The translations under genes and the position numbers were made by a program. From the NCBI RefSeq assembly GCF_013348805.1, contig NZ_CP054690.1, positions 1,488,001 to 1,552,000 of the forward strand: a stretch of DNA of 64,000 nt, in the 5' to 3' direction. Under the pieces are notes generated by a model. That model was given only the letters and a program-made list of their open reading frames with translations. It was not told the origin of the DNA and made no database searches. This document shows positions 39,777 to 46,404 of this stretch, piece by piece; within the stretch, counting starts at the first letter, position 1; each line of letters opens with the position of its first letter. The DNA comes from Rhodococcus sp. W8901 (GTDB taxonomy: Bacteria > Actinomycetota > Actinomycetes > Mycobacteriales > Mycobacteriaceae).

Positions 39777-40616
39777 ATGACTGGTCGCCTCGTCCTTGCC
39801 GCAACTCCGATGGGCGACGTCGGTGACGCCTCCGAACGACTGCGCGGGGCGCTCGGCTCCGCCGACGTCGTCGCAGCGGAGGACACACGACGGACCAAGT
39901 CGTTGGCCTCCGCGCTGGGAGTCACGATCACCGGTCGGGTGGTCAGTTTCTACGACCAGGTCGAGGTCACCCGGCTGCCTGCGCTCGTTGCCGACATCGA
40001 GGAGGGGAAGACGGTCCTGCTGGTGACCGACGCCGGCATGCCGTCGGTCAGCGACCCCGGCTACCGACTGGTGGCGGCGTGCGTCGAGAAGGACCTGCCG
40101 GTGACGTGTCTGCCGGGTCCCTCCGCCGTCACCACCGCGCTCGCGTTGTCCGGGTTGCCGGTGGAACGGTTCTGCTTCGACGGGTTCCCGCCGCGCAAGC
40201 AGGGACAGCGACGCACGTGGTTCGAAGGACTCCGCACCGAGGCTCGCGCGTGCGTCTTCTTCGAGGCGCCGCACCGACTGGCCGCGTGTCTGGCCGACGC
40301 CGTGGCGGTGCTCGGCGGCGAGCGCCGGGCGGCGGTGTGCCGCGAACTGACCAAGACGTACGAGGAGGTTCGTCGCGGCACCCTCGCCGAACTCGCGGAA
40401 TGGGCGATCGACGGCGCGCGTGGTGAGATCACCGTCGTTCTGGAGGGTGCACAGCCGGTGTCGGCGGATCCGGAGGACCTCGTCGCGGAGGTGGAACGGC
40501 TCGTCGCCGACGGGATCCGACTCAAGGATGCGTGCGCGCAGGTCGCCGCGGAGACGTCGCCGGGAGTGTCGAAGCGAGAGTTGTACGAGACGGTGCTCGC
40601 GGCCCGGCGGGACTGA
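39777..40616 (+). CDS. rsmI: 16S rRNA (cytidine(1402)-2'-O)-methyltransferase
   Basis: The 279-residue enzyme methylates the 2'-O of C1402 in the decoding centre with SAM. The tetrapyrrole methylase fold is visible: LVLAATPMGDVGDASERLR at the start (TPMGD for the usual TPIGN), VAAEDTRRTKSLAS, LVTDAGMPSVSDPG and CLPGPSAVTTALALSG. The C-terminal helix-turn-helix-like part is present. Position matches Rv1003 next to pmt. Confidence 0.93.
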   Translation: MTGRLVLAATPMGDVGDASERLRGALGSADVVAAEDTRRTKSLASALGVTITGRVVSFYDQVEVTRLPALVADIEEGKTVLLVTDAGMPSVSDPGYRLVAACVEKDLPVTCLPGPSAVTTALALSGLPVERFCFDGFPPRKQGQRRTWFEGLRTEARACVFFEAPHRLAACLADAVAVLGGERRAAVCRELTKTYEEVRRGTLAELAEWAIDGARGEITVVLEGAQPVSADPEDLVAEVERLVADGIRLKDACAQVAAETSPGVSKRELYETVLAARRD

Positions 40617-40679: not shown

Positions 40680-40853
40680 TTACCTGTGGGTGGGAGCTTC
40701 GACCGAAGTCGAAGTCCCACCCGACAGGGTCGCGGCCGCATCGGCGGGGGCCGCACCCAACAGCACCATCAGGCCCACTGTTGCGCCGATGATCAGACCT
40801 GCGGCGATTGCAGGCGGCGTCTTCGCCGTCAATCTCGTCGCTCGTTCGATCAT
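40680..40853 (-). CDS. Small single-helix membrane protein
   Basis: From ATG 40853, with AAGGAG 6 nt upstream, the 57-residue product reads MIERATRLTAKTPPAIAAGL and continues as one hydrophobic helix (IIGATVGLMVLLGAAPADA), then a short Ser/Thr tail. It might be a signal-anchored or secreted small protein, since APADAAA resembles a cleavage site. Located between rsmI and the STAND gene on the opposite strand. No function is recognised. Confidence 0.6.
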   Translation of the reverse strand: MIERATRLTAKTPPAIAAGLIIGATVGLMVLLGAAPADAAATLSGGTSTSVEAPTHR

Positions 40854-41132
40854 CTCGCGCTCCTTCACCGTGGCGTGCACCGGCAGGGACTACCCCTCGT
40901 CAAACTCAGCCCCAACCGGCGACCGCGCCGCCGGCGCAGGGCCGTTGTGCGTCGATGTCGACTTTGCCCCGCTTCGCCCTACAGGAAAACCGAAGGGTCC
41001 GCATTTGGGGCTATCATCGCAGTTCGCGGGTGGTGAGGAATTAATCCGCAGCGGAATTCCGCAGGCCCGCGGAAGCGGCAAACAGGTCGAATAGGTGGAA
41101 GCGGTCGGGGACCGAGGGAGGGTGCACGGGCG

Positions 41133-44100
41133 ATGACGTCCGAGACGGGACAGACGCCGGACGCGGAGCGGTCCGGTGCGCAGGCACGGCTGTTCTTCGC
41201 CGACCAGCTGCGTTTGTTGTTCGCGACCGCGGGCGGCCCCCCGCTCAAGAAGGTCGTCACGGAGGCATCCACCCTGACGCGGTCGTTGGGGGGCGACAAG
41301 CCCGCTTCCGTCCAGCGCGTGAGCGACTGGCGTTCGGGCAAACGAATGCCCGCCACGTTCGAATCCGTGCGCCCGGTGCTGGCGGTGCTGATCCGGATGG
41401 CCCGACCACTCCACGGGGGACCGCCGCCGACCGACGGGCTCTTCTCGATGCGTCAGTGGGAGACGTGGTGGCGTAGCGCGAACGCGGTCCAGCAAGGACG
41501 CGCGACCGGCGCCGGCACCGAGTCGTCGGCGCCCGCCCTGCCCGCCGGTGTGCGTCCCTACCGCGGTCTGGCGCCGTACCGCGAGAAGGACGAGCGGCTG
41601 TTCTTCGGTCGCCGCCACAGCGTGAGTGCACTCGTCGGGGCGGTGCTGTCGGCACAGGGCCAGGGACTGGTCGTCGTCACCGGGGCCTCGGGTGTCGGCA
41701 AATCGTCGTTCGTACAAGCGGGGCTGATCCCGGAGTTGCGGGGTCACGATCGCGAGGGCGGCAGGGCCACCTTCGCGCCGGTGGTCTTCACGCCCGGCGC
41801 CCATCCACTCGCGGCACTGGTCACCGCGGTTCCGGAGCTCGGCGACTGGGGGGAGGAGCCGGACCACCAGCACATCGAGTCCGCGCTCGCGCGAGCCGCG
41901 GTTCGGATGCAGGCGAACCAGCTTCTTCTCGTCGTCGACCAGATCGAGGAACTCTTCACGCAGTGCGCGGATCCGGGCGAGCGGGCGCGGTTCCTCACGA
42001 TTCTGGACTTCGCGGCCACTGCTCGTGCCGGCGCGGAGCCGTCCGAGACCGCGTCGGTGGTCGCGACGATGCGTTCCGACTTCTACGCTCAGGCGCTCGC
42101 CTACCCGGTGCTCGCACGAGCACTGGAACAGCGCAGCAAGGCGGTGTCGCCGCTGCTGCGGGAAGACGTCGTCGAGGTCATCACCCAGCCGGCGCGGATG
42201 ATCGGGCTCAAACTGGAGCCGGGACTGGTCGACCTGATCCTCAACGACCTCGGGGTGCTGACCGCCGGTGAGGGCAGCGGCACCGTCCTGCCACTCGTCT
42301 CGCACCTGCTCGACACGATGTGGGAGCGGCGGCGTGGTGGTCAGCTGACGATCGCGAACTACCGGGCCACCGGGGGAGTGTTGGGCTCGATCGCCGCGGC
42401 CGCCGAGCGCGCCTGGGGACAGCTCGACGAACAGGGCCGCGTCCTGGCGCGGGCGATGATGGTCCACCTCGTGTACGTCACGAGTACCGGCACCGACGTC
42501 AAGATCCGACGGACCCTGAGCCAGCTCGTGGCGTTCGAGAGCAACGACACCGGGGCCGCGCGGCGCGTCATCGACCACTTCGTCAACGCGCGGGTCCTCG
42601 TGGTCGACGGCGACGATGTCGAGCTCATCCACGACGCGGTCATCGACACGTGGCCCCGGCTCAAGACCTGGATCCAGGAGGACCGGTCGTACTCGGCGCT
42701 GCGGCAGCAGGTCGAGACCGATGCGGTGCACTGGGAGCACGCCGACCGCAATCACAGTCTGCTCTACCACCGTGGTCGTCTCGACCTGCTGGCCGAACAC
42801 GCGGCCAACCGGGCGGACAGCGCCGCCGCTGCGGAAGCCGGTGGGATCGCGGCGGTCGCGGCGTCGTTGACGCCCGCGGCCGAGGACTTCCTCGAGTCGT
42901 CGGAACGGCAGGTCCGTCGACAGGCGTGGATGCAGCGGACCGTGATGGCCGCGCTCGCGTTCTCCACCGTCGTCGCCATCGTGATGGGTGCGATGGCGCT
43001 CGGGGCGAAGTCCCGTGCCGAGAACGAGCGCAGCACCGCCCAGTTCCAGCAGGTGGTGGCGTTGGCGGATGCCCTGCGGGACACCGATCCGACGACTGCG
43101 GCGCAGTTGTCCCTCGCGGCCTGGCAGATGCGGCCCGACAACGCCGACGCGTTCACCCGACTGGTCGCGACGGAGAACACGCCGATCTCCCGGGCCCTGC
43201 CCGGTCACGCCGGTCCGATCTACGGAGTCGCGATCTCGTCCGACGGGCGCACACTGGCCACCGCGAGCGACGATCGATCGGTGCGGCTGTGGGACTTCAC
43301 CGATCGCTCTGCGCCGGTGCAGCTCGGCGCCGAACTCACCGGGCCCGAGCAGTACATGTCGTCGGTGTCGTTCAGCCGCGACGGCCGGCTCCTCGCGGCG
43401 GGCAGCGGTGACGGCACCATGTGGATCTGGGACGTCAGCGACCGCGCGGCGCCGCGGCCCCTGGTCTCGGGACTGCGAACCGCGCCGGGTGCCGTGCACA
43501 ACGTGCGCTTCAGTCCCGACGGTCGGCTCCTCGCGGCGCCGCACGACGACGGCACCGTCACCCTCTTCGACACGTCGGCGCCGGATTCCGGACAGTTCCC
43601 GGCGTGGACCCTGCGGGGGCATTCCGGCGCCGTGCGGACGGTGTCGTTCCGCGACAACGCGGTGCTCGCGACGTCGAGCGACGACCGCACCGTCAAGGTG
43701 TGGGACATCGCCGATCCCGCCAAACCGGTCCAGCTGGGGGCCGAGCTGTCGGGCTTCGACGACGTCGTGCACTCGGTGGCCTTCAGCCCGGACGGCCGAA
43801 ATCTCGCGGCCAGCAGTGACGACGGGCTGATCCGGATGTTCGATGCGACCGACATCGCCGCGATCCGTCCGGTCGGCGCTCCCGTCCAGGCGCACACCGG
43901 TGGCATCTGGACCATCGCCTTCGCGGCCGACGGCGGAACACTCGCGAGCGCGTCGTGGGACGGGACGACGAAGTTGTGGTCGGTGGACCCGAGCACCCGG
44001 ACTCTCCACGAGCTGCGGCCCGCGCTGAGCGGGAACGGCGGCGGGGTCCCGGCGCTGGCGCTGTCGCCGGACGGCGGCACGATCATCACCGGCGGACAGG

Positions 44101-45188
44101 ATTCGCTGGTGCGGGTGTGGACGCTGCCGGGCGGCACGGTCCCGGTGTCGGACTCGTCGATGACGTTGCCGTCGATGAATCGTGACGGATCACTGCTCGC
44201 CACCGCGGGATACGACTCGGCGGTGCGGCTGTGGTCGGTGGACCGGCACGGTCAGATCGAGCGGGCGGGGACGATCGACGTGCCGCGCCCGTTGGGCGGT
44301 GCCAACGTCGCGGTGCTCTCTCCGGACGGTCGGGTCCTCGCGACCACGCAGACCGCGGGCGGGCGCGTCCAGCTGTGGGACGTGCAGAACCCGGCGCGGC
44401 CGGTGCCGATGGGCCCGCCGATCGCGACGGCGACCCGTTTCACGTGGGAAATGGCGTTCAGCCCCGACGGCCGGACCCTCGCGATCGGGGACGACGACTT
44501 CCGGGTCGCGTTGTGGAACATCCAGGATCCGTATGCCCCCGTGCTGCGGGGGCCGAGCCTGCCGGGCCCCCACAACCTGGTGCGCAGCGCGGTGTTCAGT
44601 CCGAGCGGTGACGTCCTCGTCGTGGCCAGTGCCGACGGCGAGATCCATGCGTGGGATGTCACCGATCCGTCGGTGCCGCAGTCTCGTCCGGTCGGCGAGG
44701 GCGGTCACGACGGCGGCGTGAACTCGCTCTCGTTCAGTCCGGACGGCTCCACGTTGGTCACCGCGAGCGACGACCACACCCTGCTGCTGTGGGACAGGAA
44801 CGCCGAGGGTGGGTTCAACCCGCGCGGCACGGCGATGAGTGGGCACACCGGGACGGTCTACAGCGTCGCGTTCAGCGCGGACGGTACGCACGTCGTCAGC
44901 GGCAGCGACGACGGTTCGGTCCGGCTGTGGAGCGTGGACGGGGACAACGGCGGCGAGGCGGTCGGTGGTCCGCTCACGACGATCGGAACGGGTCGCTGGC
45001 AGGTCAACTTCCTGCCGCACTCGTCCATCGTGGTCGCGGGTGGAGGCGACGGTGTGCTCCGCACGTGGCGACTCGACGCGGACGCGGTGACCGAGCGGAT
45101 CTGTTCGGCTACTTCGGAACTGACTCAGGACCGGCCGGCACACTTCGAGATGCCGGAGTCCGGTCGGGGTGCGTGCGCGACGTCGTGA
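41133..45188 (+). CDS. HTH-nSTAND NTPase-WD40 signalling protein (1351 residues)
   Basis: A large, intact gene. Residues 1-110 hold a predicted helix-turn-helix (SVQRVSDWRSGKRMP near 60). The STAND NTPase follows: FFGRRHSVSALV, Walker A GASGVGKSS at 184-192, Walker B LLLVVDQIEELF at 264-275, then the helical and winged-helix parts with ELIHDAVIDTWPRLK. A single membrane helix spans about 603-625 with positive residues before it. From 692 to about 1317 there are 14 WD40 repeats, enough for two seven-bladed propellers. By the positive-inside rule the NTPase is cytosolic and the propellers outside. Such proteins act as ligand-triggered switches, some in defence. The end overlaps pabB by 80 nt on the other strand. 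Confidence 0.88.
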   Translation: MTSETGQTPDAERSGAQARLFFADQLRLLFATAGGPPLKKVVTEASTLTRSLGGDKPASVQRVSDWRSGKRMPATFESVRPVLAVLIRMARPLHGGPPPTDGLFSMRQWETWWRSANAVQQGRATGAGTESSAPALPAGVRPYRGLAPYREKDERLFFGRRHSVSALVGAVLSAQGQGLVVVTGASGVGKSSFVQAGLIPELRGHDREGGRATFAPVVFTPGAHPLAALVTAVPELGDWGEEPDHQHIESALARAAVRMQANQLLLVVDQIEELFTQCADPGERARFLTILDFAATARAGAEPSETASVVATMRSDFYAQALAYPVLARALEQRSKAVSPLLREDVVEVITQPARMIGLKLEPGLVDLILNDLGVLTAGEGSGTVLPLVSHLLDTMWERRRGGQLTIANYRATGGVLGSIAAAAERAWGQLDEQGRVLARAMMVHLVYVTSTGTDVKIRRTLSQLVAFESNDTGAARRVIDHFVNARVLVVDGDDVELIHDAVIDTWPRLKTWIQEDRSYSALRQQVETDAVHWEHADRNHSLLYHRGRLDLLAEHAANRADSAAAAEAGGIAAVAASLTPAAEDFLESSERQVRRQAWMQRTVMAALAFSTVVAIVMGAMALGAKSRAENERSTAQFQQVVALADALRDTDPTTAAQLSLAAWQMRPDNADAFTRLVATENTPISRALPGHAGPIYGVAISSDGRTLATASDDRSVRLWDFTDRSAPVQLGAELTGPEQYMSSVSFSRDGRLLAAGSGDGTMWIWDVSDRAAPRPLVSGLRTAPGAVHNVRFSPDGRLLAAPHDDGTVTLFDTSAPDSGQFPAWTLRGHSGAVRTVSFRDNAVLATSSDDRTVKVWDIADPAKPVQLGAELSGFDDVVHSVAFSPDGRNLAASSDDGLIRMFDATDIAAIRPVGAPVQAHTGGIWTIAFAADGGTLASASWDGTTKLWSVDPSTRTLHELRPALSGNGGGVPALALSPDGGTIITGGQDSLVRVWTLPGGTVPVSDSSMTLPSMNRDGSLLATAGYDSAVRLWSVDRHGQIERAGTIDVPRPLGGANVAVLSPDGRVLATTQTAGGRVQLWDVQNPARPVPMGPPIATATRFTWEMAFSPDGRTLAIGDDDFRVALWNIQDPYAPVLRGPSLPGPHNLVRSAVFSPSGDVLVVASADGEIHAWDVTDPSVPQSRPVGEGGHDGGVNSLSFSPDGSTLVTASDDHTLLLWDRNAEGGFNPRGTAMSGHTGTVYSVAFSADGTHVVSGSDDGSVRLWSVDGDNGGEAVGGPLTTIGTGRWQVNFLPHSSIVVAGGGDGVLRTWRLDADAVTERICSATSELTQDRPAHFEMPESGRGACATS

Positions 45189-46404
45189 GCGTGACGATGC
45201 TCGCGGCCTTGTCGAGGCATTCCTGCCATTCGGCGTCGGGATCGGAGTCGATGGTGATGCCGCCGCCCACTCCCAGTCCGACGCCGCCGGTCGCGTCGAA
45301 CTCGACGGTGCGGATCGCGACGTTCAGTTCGAGCCCGGCGATCGGGCTGTGCATGCCGACCGTGCCGCAGTAGACGCCGCGGGGTTCGGGTTCCCAGCCG
45401 CGGAGTAGTTGTCGGGCAGAGTGTTTGGGGCAGCCGGTGACGGAGGCCGGGGGGAAGGCCGCGTCGAGCAGTTCGGGGGTGCCGACCGTCTCGGGCAGGG
45501 CGGCCGACACCGTCGAGACCAGGTGCCACACGCCGGGCGCCGGCTTGACCCGCAACAGGTCGGTGACCCGTACCGAGCCCGGCTCGGCCACCCGGCCCAG
45601 GTCGTTGCGGACCAGGTCGACGATCATCACGTTCTCGGCGACATCCTTGACCGAACGGCGAAGCGCGGCAGGGTCTTCGCTCAGCGGGAGGGTGCCCTTG
45701 ATGGGGCTCGACGTGACGGTGCCCGAGCGGCGGGACAGGAACAGTTCCGGTGACAGCGACGCGACAGCGCCCCACGTTCCCTCGACGAACGCGGCCCGGC
45801 TGGGTCGCGTCTGGTCGACGGCGTCGGCGAAGAAGTCCACGGGGGCACCTGAACTCGTCCCGTGGAATCGCGCGCACACGCACGCCTGGTAGACGTCACC
45901 GCGCGCGATGGCGTCGAGGCAGGCCTCGACGCCGTGGCGGTGCGCGCGCCGATCCGGGTCGATCCAGTCGATCTGCCACGGCTGCGGTTGCGCGACGGGC
46001 TCACGCACCGCCGCGGTCAGGTCGTCGGGGCAGGACAGGTCGGTGAGGCTCTCGAACCACCAGCATCCCGAGGTGTCCAGCCGCAGAACGTGATCCGTCC
46101 AGCCACCGGCGGCCGCCGGCAACGCGCCCGATCGGTCCGGGTAGGCGCGGTAGCCGATCCAGCCGCCGCCGATCAGCAGACCGTCGGGTACGGGTGTTTC
46201 ACGTGAGACGGACGCCGGGAACGTGAATGCGTCGTCGGGCCGACACGAACTCGCGTGCACGCTGGGTGCGATCACGGCGGCGGCGTCGAACCAGCTGCCG
46301 ATCAGGCCGGCCGGCGGTGGAAGCTGCCGCGTGACAGCCCGCCGAGCCAATGCGCGGAACACGGCGGCGGCGGTGCCGCCGCTTCCGAGTCGCTCGATCC
46401 GCAT
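45109..46404 (-). CDS. pabB: Aminodeoxychorismate synthase component I
   Basis: The 431-residue chorismate-utilising enzyme makes 4-amino-4-deoxychorismate for folate synthesis. The catalytic core is clear: GDVYQACVCARFHG, AAFVEGTWGAVASLSPELFL, SSPIKGTLPLSEDPAALR, IVDLVRNDLGRVAEPGSV, PASVTGCPKHSARQLL, and GVGGGITIDSDPDAEW. The SPIKGT and GGGIT blocks separate it from TrpE. The glutaminase partner PabA is not adjacent. Its last 80 nt overlap the convergent STAND gene, so the C-terminal 26 residues share DNA with it. Locus matches Rv1005c. Confidence 0.92.
   Translation of the reverse strand: MRIERLGSGGTAAAVFRALARRAVTRQLPPPAGLIGSWFDAAAVIAPSVHASSCRPDDAFTFPASVSRETPVPDGLLIGGGWIGYRAYPDRSGALPAAAGGWTDHVLRLDTSGCWWFESLTDLSCPDDLTAAVREPVAQPQPWQIDWIDPDRRAHRHGVEACLDAIARGDVYQACVCARFHGTSSGAPVDFFADAVDQTRPSRAAFVEGTWGAVASLSPELFLSRRSGTVTSSPIKGTLPLSEDPAALRRSVKDVAENVMIVDLVRNDLGRVAEPGSVRVTDLLRVKPAPGVWHLVSTVSAALPETVGTPELLDAAFPPASVTGCPKHSARQLLRGWEPEPRGVYCGTVGMHSPIAGLELNVAIRTVEFDATGGVGLGVGGGITIDSDPDAEWQECLDKAASIVTLTTSRTHPDRTPASRSVPAGPESVPK

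Follow-up and report, generated by a model that had tools for sequence, protein, structure and literature searches.

The membrane proteins ToxR and CadC bind DNA through an OmpR-like winged helix-turn-helix (HTH), and the STAND protein MalT is soluble and carries a C-terminal LuxR-type HTH. Here we describe a gene of Rhodococcus sp. W8901 whose product is alike to both kinds, combining an HTH-like head, an nSTAND1 NTPase, a transmembrane helix and a WD40 region in one protein of 1351 amino acids. It lies at 41133..45188 on the + strand of a 64,000-nucleotide stretch of contig NZ_CP054690.1 (positions 1,488,001 to 1,552,000; hereafter the window), and we refer to it as the receptor gene. In our reading, the protein probably acts as a one-component autoregulator of the STAND class that spans the membrane.

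ToxR and CadC have an inside DNA-binding domain, one membrane helix and an outside sensor, with a cysteine pair in the periplasmic part (PMC3096576). In the window protein the parts stand in this order, with a sensor that is probably outside on the grounds given below; it differs in its putative XRE-like HTH, its STAND NTPase between HTH and membrane, its WD40 sensor and, apparently, in targeting the promoter of its own gene. MalT, AfsR and IniR, like the regulator proposed here, couple a STAND switch to DNA binding (PMC6468293, PMC5760070, PMC10936776). The available text on IniR mentions no membrane helix and describes a LuxR-like DNA-binding domain at the C-terminus; periplasmic sensing of trehalose is argued for by the authors (PMC5760070). 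No C-terminal LuxR-type HTH of the MalT kind is seen here, where the C-terminal half consists of WD40 repeats and a short tail. For STAND proteins with WD40 or leucine-rich-repeat sensors, contact between the resting sensor and the switch has been described (PMC6468293). PknD of M. tuberculosis is a membrane protein with an inside enzyme and an outside beta-propeller sensor, but it has a kinase in place of the NTPase and HTH, and its propeller is six-bladed (PMC3322341). PkwA and other prokaryotic proteins likewise carry WD40 domains, and the available portions of those reports describe no HTH or operator (PMC6113231, PMC5587647). With nSTAND1 (PF20703) the protein shares a full-length profile match and the conserved NTPase residues, whereas here a membrane helix separates the NTPase from the sensor and a candidate operator precedes the gene. 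By analogy, it would work like CadC/ToxR and MalT/IniR, with a PknD-like outside propeller, and it is filed under none of these. Our literature search returned no description of this architecture together with an operator.

An nSTAND1 protein with a single membrane helix

The open frame at 41133..45188 begins with ATG and encodes 1351 residues. A Pfam profile search placed PF20703 over residues 142-541 (41556..42755; all protein features are on the + strand) with an E value of 2.2e-108 and a score of 363.7 bits against a curated cut-off of 27.1, aligning profile positions 1-378 of 379. The P-loop residues G189, K190 and S192, the acidic residues D269 and E272, and also R314, D316 and H500 are invariant across 43 aligned homologues. 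By profile and motifs, the protein is a member of nSTAND1; both the intact frame and the full nSTAND NTPase proposed in an earlier reading made from the letters alone (the sequence-only reading) hold. In the host genome, a single nSTAND1 match reaches E 1.6e-109; five further ones stand at E 3e-5 or weaker, one of which passes the cut-off only together with its neighbours. Sequence comparison of the NTPase with the PDB yielded P-loop-only matches.

Profile alignment and AlphaFold2 place an HTH-like bundle at residues 10-93 (41160..41411). This N-terminus, which we name QRISDW-type, aligns with the N-termini of nSTAND1 relatives (hhalign, 84%, E 7.6e-6) that are Pfam HTH_31 in 11/11 cases; among aligned relatives of the window protein itself, HTH_31 was found in just 2 of 26. 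For residues 1-662 (mean pLDDT 82.6, pTM 0.58), AlphaFold2 predicts an all-helical, five-helix N-terminal bundle with helices at 10-32, 38-52, 60-68, 76-93 and 106-124. Helix 60-68 occupies the place of a recognition helix, and residue 71 (41343-41345) is predicted in the loop that follows it. An OmpR-like winged HTH was not matched among the best 25 of 61 Pfam families, in line with the all-helical bundle, and a sequence comparison with the PDB gave no convincing relative for the HTH. The HTH call is the weakest point of the domain reading, its basis being the HTH_31 relatives and the predicted bundle. As publicly annotated, the WD40 gene of three loci (L211, L212 and L214) begins 255 bp past the start of the HTH match, so that the HTH is omitted.

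Hydrophobicity and alignment mark a single transmembrane helix at residues 603-625 (42939..43007), with an Arg-rich N-side. The most hydrophobic 21-residue segments begin at 603-604 (mean 2.19), and the best one elsewhere (1.48) begins at 164. The helix is directly followed by a conserved helical segment (residues 626-682, 43008..43178; alignment and AlphaFold2), the WD40 propeller region (residues 685-1313, 43185..45071; Pfam and AlphaFold2) and a C-terminal tail, where the alignment shows a cysteine pair, C1324 and C1348 (45102..45176). WD40 exceeds the Pfam threshold in 12 stretches. AlphaFold2 modeling of residues 590-1351 (mean pLDDT 90.6, 43 aligned sequences) predicts 51 strands of at least three residues in the propeller region, together with one long helix and a helical hairpin. 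The strands would make 13-14 four-stranded blades, which fits a pair of propellers with about seven blades each; of the sequence-only reading, the two propellers fit the predicted structure, while the exact count of 14 repeats is unconfirmed.

The HTH is the most conserved segment, with a median identity to the window protein of 86, 76 and 67% in the home genus (g1) and two further genera (g21 and g27), respectively; in g1 it is tied with the short post-membrane segment. The corresponding values are 80, 68 and 62% for nSTAND1, 80, 67 and 60% for propeller 1 and 75, 58 and 56% for propeller 2. Propeller 1 therefore changes no faster than the NTPase, and propeller 2 is somewhat looser.

We assessed topology in an alignment of 52 full-length homologues: 12 from g1, 6 from g21, 13 from g27, one paralogue and 20 distant sequences chosen among the better-scoring matches to residues 1-650. 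The membrane helix is present in 52/52, with about 670-740 residues C-terminal of it. Net charge is higher in the 15 residues before the helix than in the 15 after it in 49/52, with three ties and no reverse; by K+R count alone, the N-side is higher in 47, with one tie. The tail cysteine pair is present in 48/52 and comprises the sole tail cysteines in 40; L099 has six. The remaining four proteins, two pairs of similar sequences, comprise two without tail cysteines and two with a different close pair. Because the two cysteines are lost together, a disulfide is suggested, and with it an outside location. Charge bias and cysteine pair thus indicate that the propellers probably lie outside the membrane and the NTPase and HTH in the cytosol, and so favor, by inference, the topology drawn in the sequence-only reading.

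A conserved inverted repeat precedes the gene

A conserved inverted repeat, the candidate operator TCCGCAGCGGA (41045..41055, no strand assigned), lies 77 nt before the ATG; by eye, a -10-like box, TATCAT (41012..41017, + strand), lies 27 nt before it. TCCGCAGCGGA occurs upstream of all 31 full-length close orthologues and, with the split-gene locus L075, of 32/32; the pattern TCCGC-A-GCGGA lies within 400 bp upstream in the same 32/32. For the wider comparison, we scanned 92 loci with the HTH profile, which matched 86, as well as 41 loci obtained at order and class level; four duplicates were removed. The degenerate form TCCGS-N-SCGGA was found within 400 bp in all of the core 32, in 38 of 66 more distant homologues with an HTH profile E<1e-15 and in 2 of 25 loci with weak or other-type heads. 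Shuffling gave means of 0.23 for the core 32, 0.37 for the 66 and 0.12 for the 25, and maxima over 200 shuffles of 2 for the core 32 and 3 for the 66. Site density per 400 bp upstream was 1.03 and 0.61, compared with 0.011 and 0.010 in the remainder of these loci, a difference of about 60-90x.

Exact sites were found in 10 of 23 HTH clusters, and many distant homologues carry the related form TCCGG-N-CCGGA. The site is present at all ten strongly matching loci of the class-level genus g116, which we guess to be Streptomyces; by eye, it begins there about 7 nt after a TAGAGT-like box. Among L129-L149, it was not seen before the ten nSTAND1 homologues whose heads are of the HTH_31 type. This association of the upstream site with the HTH type supports the link to DNA that had been proposed for the protein. 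The head is not universal: it was matched at E<1e-5 in 24 of 298 order and 21 of 296 class genomes, searches that scored at most 16 candidates per genome, so that absence there is weak. A literature search with five exact operator strings returned no match. By eye and uncounted, a CAGGTCA element lies about 18-20 nt before the operator in L068, L086, L180, L190 and others, which are otherwise distant.

Residue 71 varies with the half-site

Column 71 is the sole HTH column in which the TCCGC and TCCGG classes share no residue. It is Arg in 34/34 TCCGC proteins, and in the 37 TCCGG proteins it is Asn (26), His (8), Thr (2) or Ser (1). On the NTPase tree (FastTree, no support values), the combination of Arg and TCCGC appears at two separate places: L086 and L087 lie apart from the core clade and group with L085 and L091, which are TCCGG proteins. 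This placement suggests that residue 71 and the site changed together at least two times on the NTPase tree. The closely related homologues on plasmids pR8C2, pCP3 and pdjl-6-3 (the last being L087) combine Arg71, or the residue equivalent to it, with TCCGC half-sites set 2 bp apart. In an S. mirabilis homologue, a fragment of the HTH profile was matched and no site was found.

Across whole genomes, the strict forms of the site are rare. None of the 14 own-genus genomes has more than one WTTCCGCAGCGGA, and 8 of the 10 occurrences precede the receptor gene; TTTTCCGGTCCGGAY occurs five times, in 5 of 6 g116 genomes, each time before the homologue. Since the strict forms are nearly unique per genome, the receptor gene's own promoter is probably the main target of the HTH. 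Eight further places of a looser form, WTCCGCNGCGGAW, in the host genome overlap open frames of undecided coding status, one of them in a hairpin by eye; further targets are thus possible. A regulon in the host genome was considered and rejected given these overlaps and the near-uniqueness of the strict sites, in a test that was not exhaustive.

The locus is conserved in three genera

The gene order at the locus is PMT, rsmI, receptor gene, pabB-like, DUF2786, metG-like and tatD-like. By flank annotation, rsmI lies upstream (39777..40616, + strand) and a pabB-like chorismate-binding gene downstream (45109..46404, - strand). The receptor gene and the pabB-like gene overlap tail to tail by 80 bp (45109-45188), and the pabB match has one stop in 6/6 sampled g21 genomes. 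In L074 of g27, a symporter-like membrane protein frame (L074:1484-2890, by eye) stands between rsmI and the receptor gene, and other g27 genomes have gaps of similar size there.

The receptor gene was found in 14/14 own-genus genomes, as a single frame in 12; in G003, a 79% complete assembly, it is in pieces with stops, and in G004 it is in two frames. Such two-frame splits (G004:C2:201240-205302 and G118:C4:46271-48138) are sequencing errors or true breaks. Residues 1-650 were matched in 174 of 301 genomes of the family and 24 of its 31 genera; among the matches listed, those with at least 58% identity over most of this region come from g1, g21 and g27 only. In 141 sampled genomes, rsmI was found in 141 and pabB in 103. 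The gene lies between the two in 23/23 sampled g1, g21 and g27 genomes (9, 6 and 8, respectively). In 72/72 comparable genomes of other genera, rsmI and pabB lie no more than 20 kb apart, pointing towards each other, and no listed match separates them; the largest of these gaps between match ends, 3838 bp, is shorter than the gene, and 49 of the 72 are at most 200 bp. The other 46 genomes were not comparable (no pabB match, another contig, the same strand or far apart).

GC and GC3 of the gene resemble those of its neighbours. The simplest reading of the distribution is a single arrival before g1, g21 and g27 split, with inheritance since. The sequence-only reading took the gene for an insertion; a recent insertion or mobile element is rejected given one place across three genera and neighbour-like composition. 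M. tuberculosis, to which that reading points, is not known to have such a gene between rsmI and pabB, in agreement with the 72 other-genus genomes. A presence of the gene at this place in nearly all Corynebacteriales was not found. On mobile DNA, residues 1-662 were matched in 181 plasmid records, 44 of them with one place covering 80%, and in three phage records, covering about 62%.

A probable divergent microprotein shares the upstream region

Upstream, on the - strand (40680..40853), an open reading frame (ORF) for 57 residues with a Shine-Dalgarno-like sequence before it was identified by an ORF filter and by pN/pS; its product has one predicted membrane helix. It is present in 10/12 g1, 6/6 g21 (L065 by hydrophobic frame alone) and 4/14 g27 loci. 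Over the 10 g1 loci, pN and pS are 0.115 and 0.350 in frame, versus 0.206 and 0.119, and 0.206 and 0.132, in the shifted frames, and the microprotein is therefore probably coding. Before the 66 distant homologues, this filter turned up nothing similar; at L122, an unlike ORF lies 588 nt away. The shared intergenic region also contains a conserved element, ACTACCCCTCG (40889..40899, no strand assigned), and 23 of 31 orthologues carry an exact ACTACCCCT no more than 480 bp upstream; in g21 and g27, ACTACCCCT apparently lies, by eye, in the loop that an inverted repeat would form. No Rfam family fits the leader and intergenic region, where two matches at chance level fall far below the gathering scores, and a known RNA element in the leader was rejected on this basis.

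Proposed mechanism and alternatives

In the autoregulator that we propose, the double propeller outside the cytoplasmic membrane would sense an envelope or surface signal, and the single helix would pass it to the cytosolic nSTAND1 switch. By analogy with STAND proteins such as MalT, the switch may then change how the HTH oligomerises or how tightly it binds DNA. Conservation, distribution and residue-71 covariation suggest that the HTH recognises the repeat TCCGC-A-GCGGA that lies 77 nt ahead of the start codon of its own gene. Here the -10-like box precedes the site, as the TAGAGT-like box does in the Streptomyces-like homologues, so that in its resting form the protein is most likely a repressor of its own promoter; that it is one and that the signal relieves the repression appears quite probable. 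The divergent microprotein shares the control region in most home-genus loci and may be co-regulated.

Several observations weigh against this proposal. Were switch and WD40 sensor on opposite sides of the membrane, activation would have to cross the bilayer, and the contact of the resting sensor with the NTPase core described for WD40-sensor STAND proteins (PMC6468293) would be impossible; this is both the main mechanistic tension and the main novelty. By K+R count, the C-side of the helix is higher in 4/52 homologues, and a third tail cysteine occurs in seven proteins, all from g27. Pfam finds no HTH in the window protein; the HTH proposed in the sequence-only reading is backed by the alignment with HTH_31 relatives and the helical bundle. 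The exact site is absent within 400 bp in 28 of the 66 distant homologues, including the Arg71 proteins L111 and L127; the pREL1 homologue has Asn71 yet no site; and in the L087/L211/L212/L214 group the repeat is 12 bp, not 11 bp. Homologue counts throughout refer to related sequences, not independent events. In G002 and G003, WTTCCGCAGCGGA lies elsewhere than before the receptor gene, and 4 of the 14 own-genus genomes, among them that of W8901, lack it owing to a different base ahead of TCCGC. For the looser WTCCGCNGCGGAW, the host genome gives 9 hits, against 1 for a reversed-pattern control.

Alternatively, the propellers could be cytosolic and serve as a sensor or scaffold inside the cell, like those of Apaf-1-type STAND proteins: the residues after the helix are partly basic, K+R is higher on the C-side in 4/52, and WD40-sensor STAND proteins are described as touching their own NTPase directly (PMC6468293). 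The net charge, which favors N-inside in 49/52 with three ties and no reverse, and the cysteine pair, kept in 48/52 with both members gone in the other four, make this unlikely. It is distinctly unlikely that the palindrome is the site of another regulator or a leader RNA hairpin that the HTH does not bind. It does lie in a probable 5' leader, which holds other conserved blocks and where a short stem could form, but it tracks HTH type and residue 71 across genera, was not seen before the ten homologues with HTH_31-type heads, and no Rfam family fits. Also unlikely is the idea that the receptor exists to control the microprotein, which it would keep off until a signal arrives and which would be the true output: the microprotein looks coding in 10 g1 loci and shares its control region with the receptor gene, but it is found in just 4 of 14 g27 loci, while the operator is in 32/32, and nothing similar precedes the 66 distant homologues.

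A membrane-anchored defence system, in which the propellers detect an invader, the NTPase oligomerises to kill or arrest the cell and the HTH merely tunes expression, would be compatible with autoregulation, as suits a dangerous protein. nSTAND1 is named among predicted counter-invader systems in the available text of PMC8195603, and distant homologues occur in the plasmid records noted above. However, the best 25 of 61 Pfam families include no known effector domain, propeller 1 and the NTPase are conserved to about the same degree, and the annotated flanking genes are housekeeping genes. The gene is not patchy, being present in 14/14 genomes of its genus and at one locus in 23/23 genomes of three genera. 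PADLOC gave no NTPase match beyond a 21-residue one to mads_3 (E 0.06); its HEAT-ARM_XIII match has its best stretch within the WD40 part. The antiviral role raised in the sequence-only reading thus finds no support here, and we regard defence as a rather poor candidate.

Returning to the membrane-spanning autoregulator, we somewhat favor a broader view in which it represents a family of transmembrane STAND receptors scattered through the class Actinomycetes, each with a DNA-binding head, a private operator before its gene, a residue-71 code (Arg for TCCGC; Asn, His or Thr for TCCGG) and a switch and WD40 sensor on opposite sides of the membrane. The predicted operator and the residue-71 code make the DNA end directly testable, and a promoter fusion could serve as a reporter for finding the signal. 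STAND switches are central in immunity and transcription control, and a STAND protein that reads a signal across a membrane would, if this reading is true, pose a direct mechanistic question.

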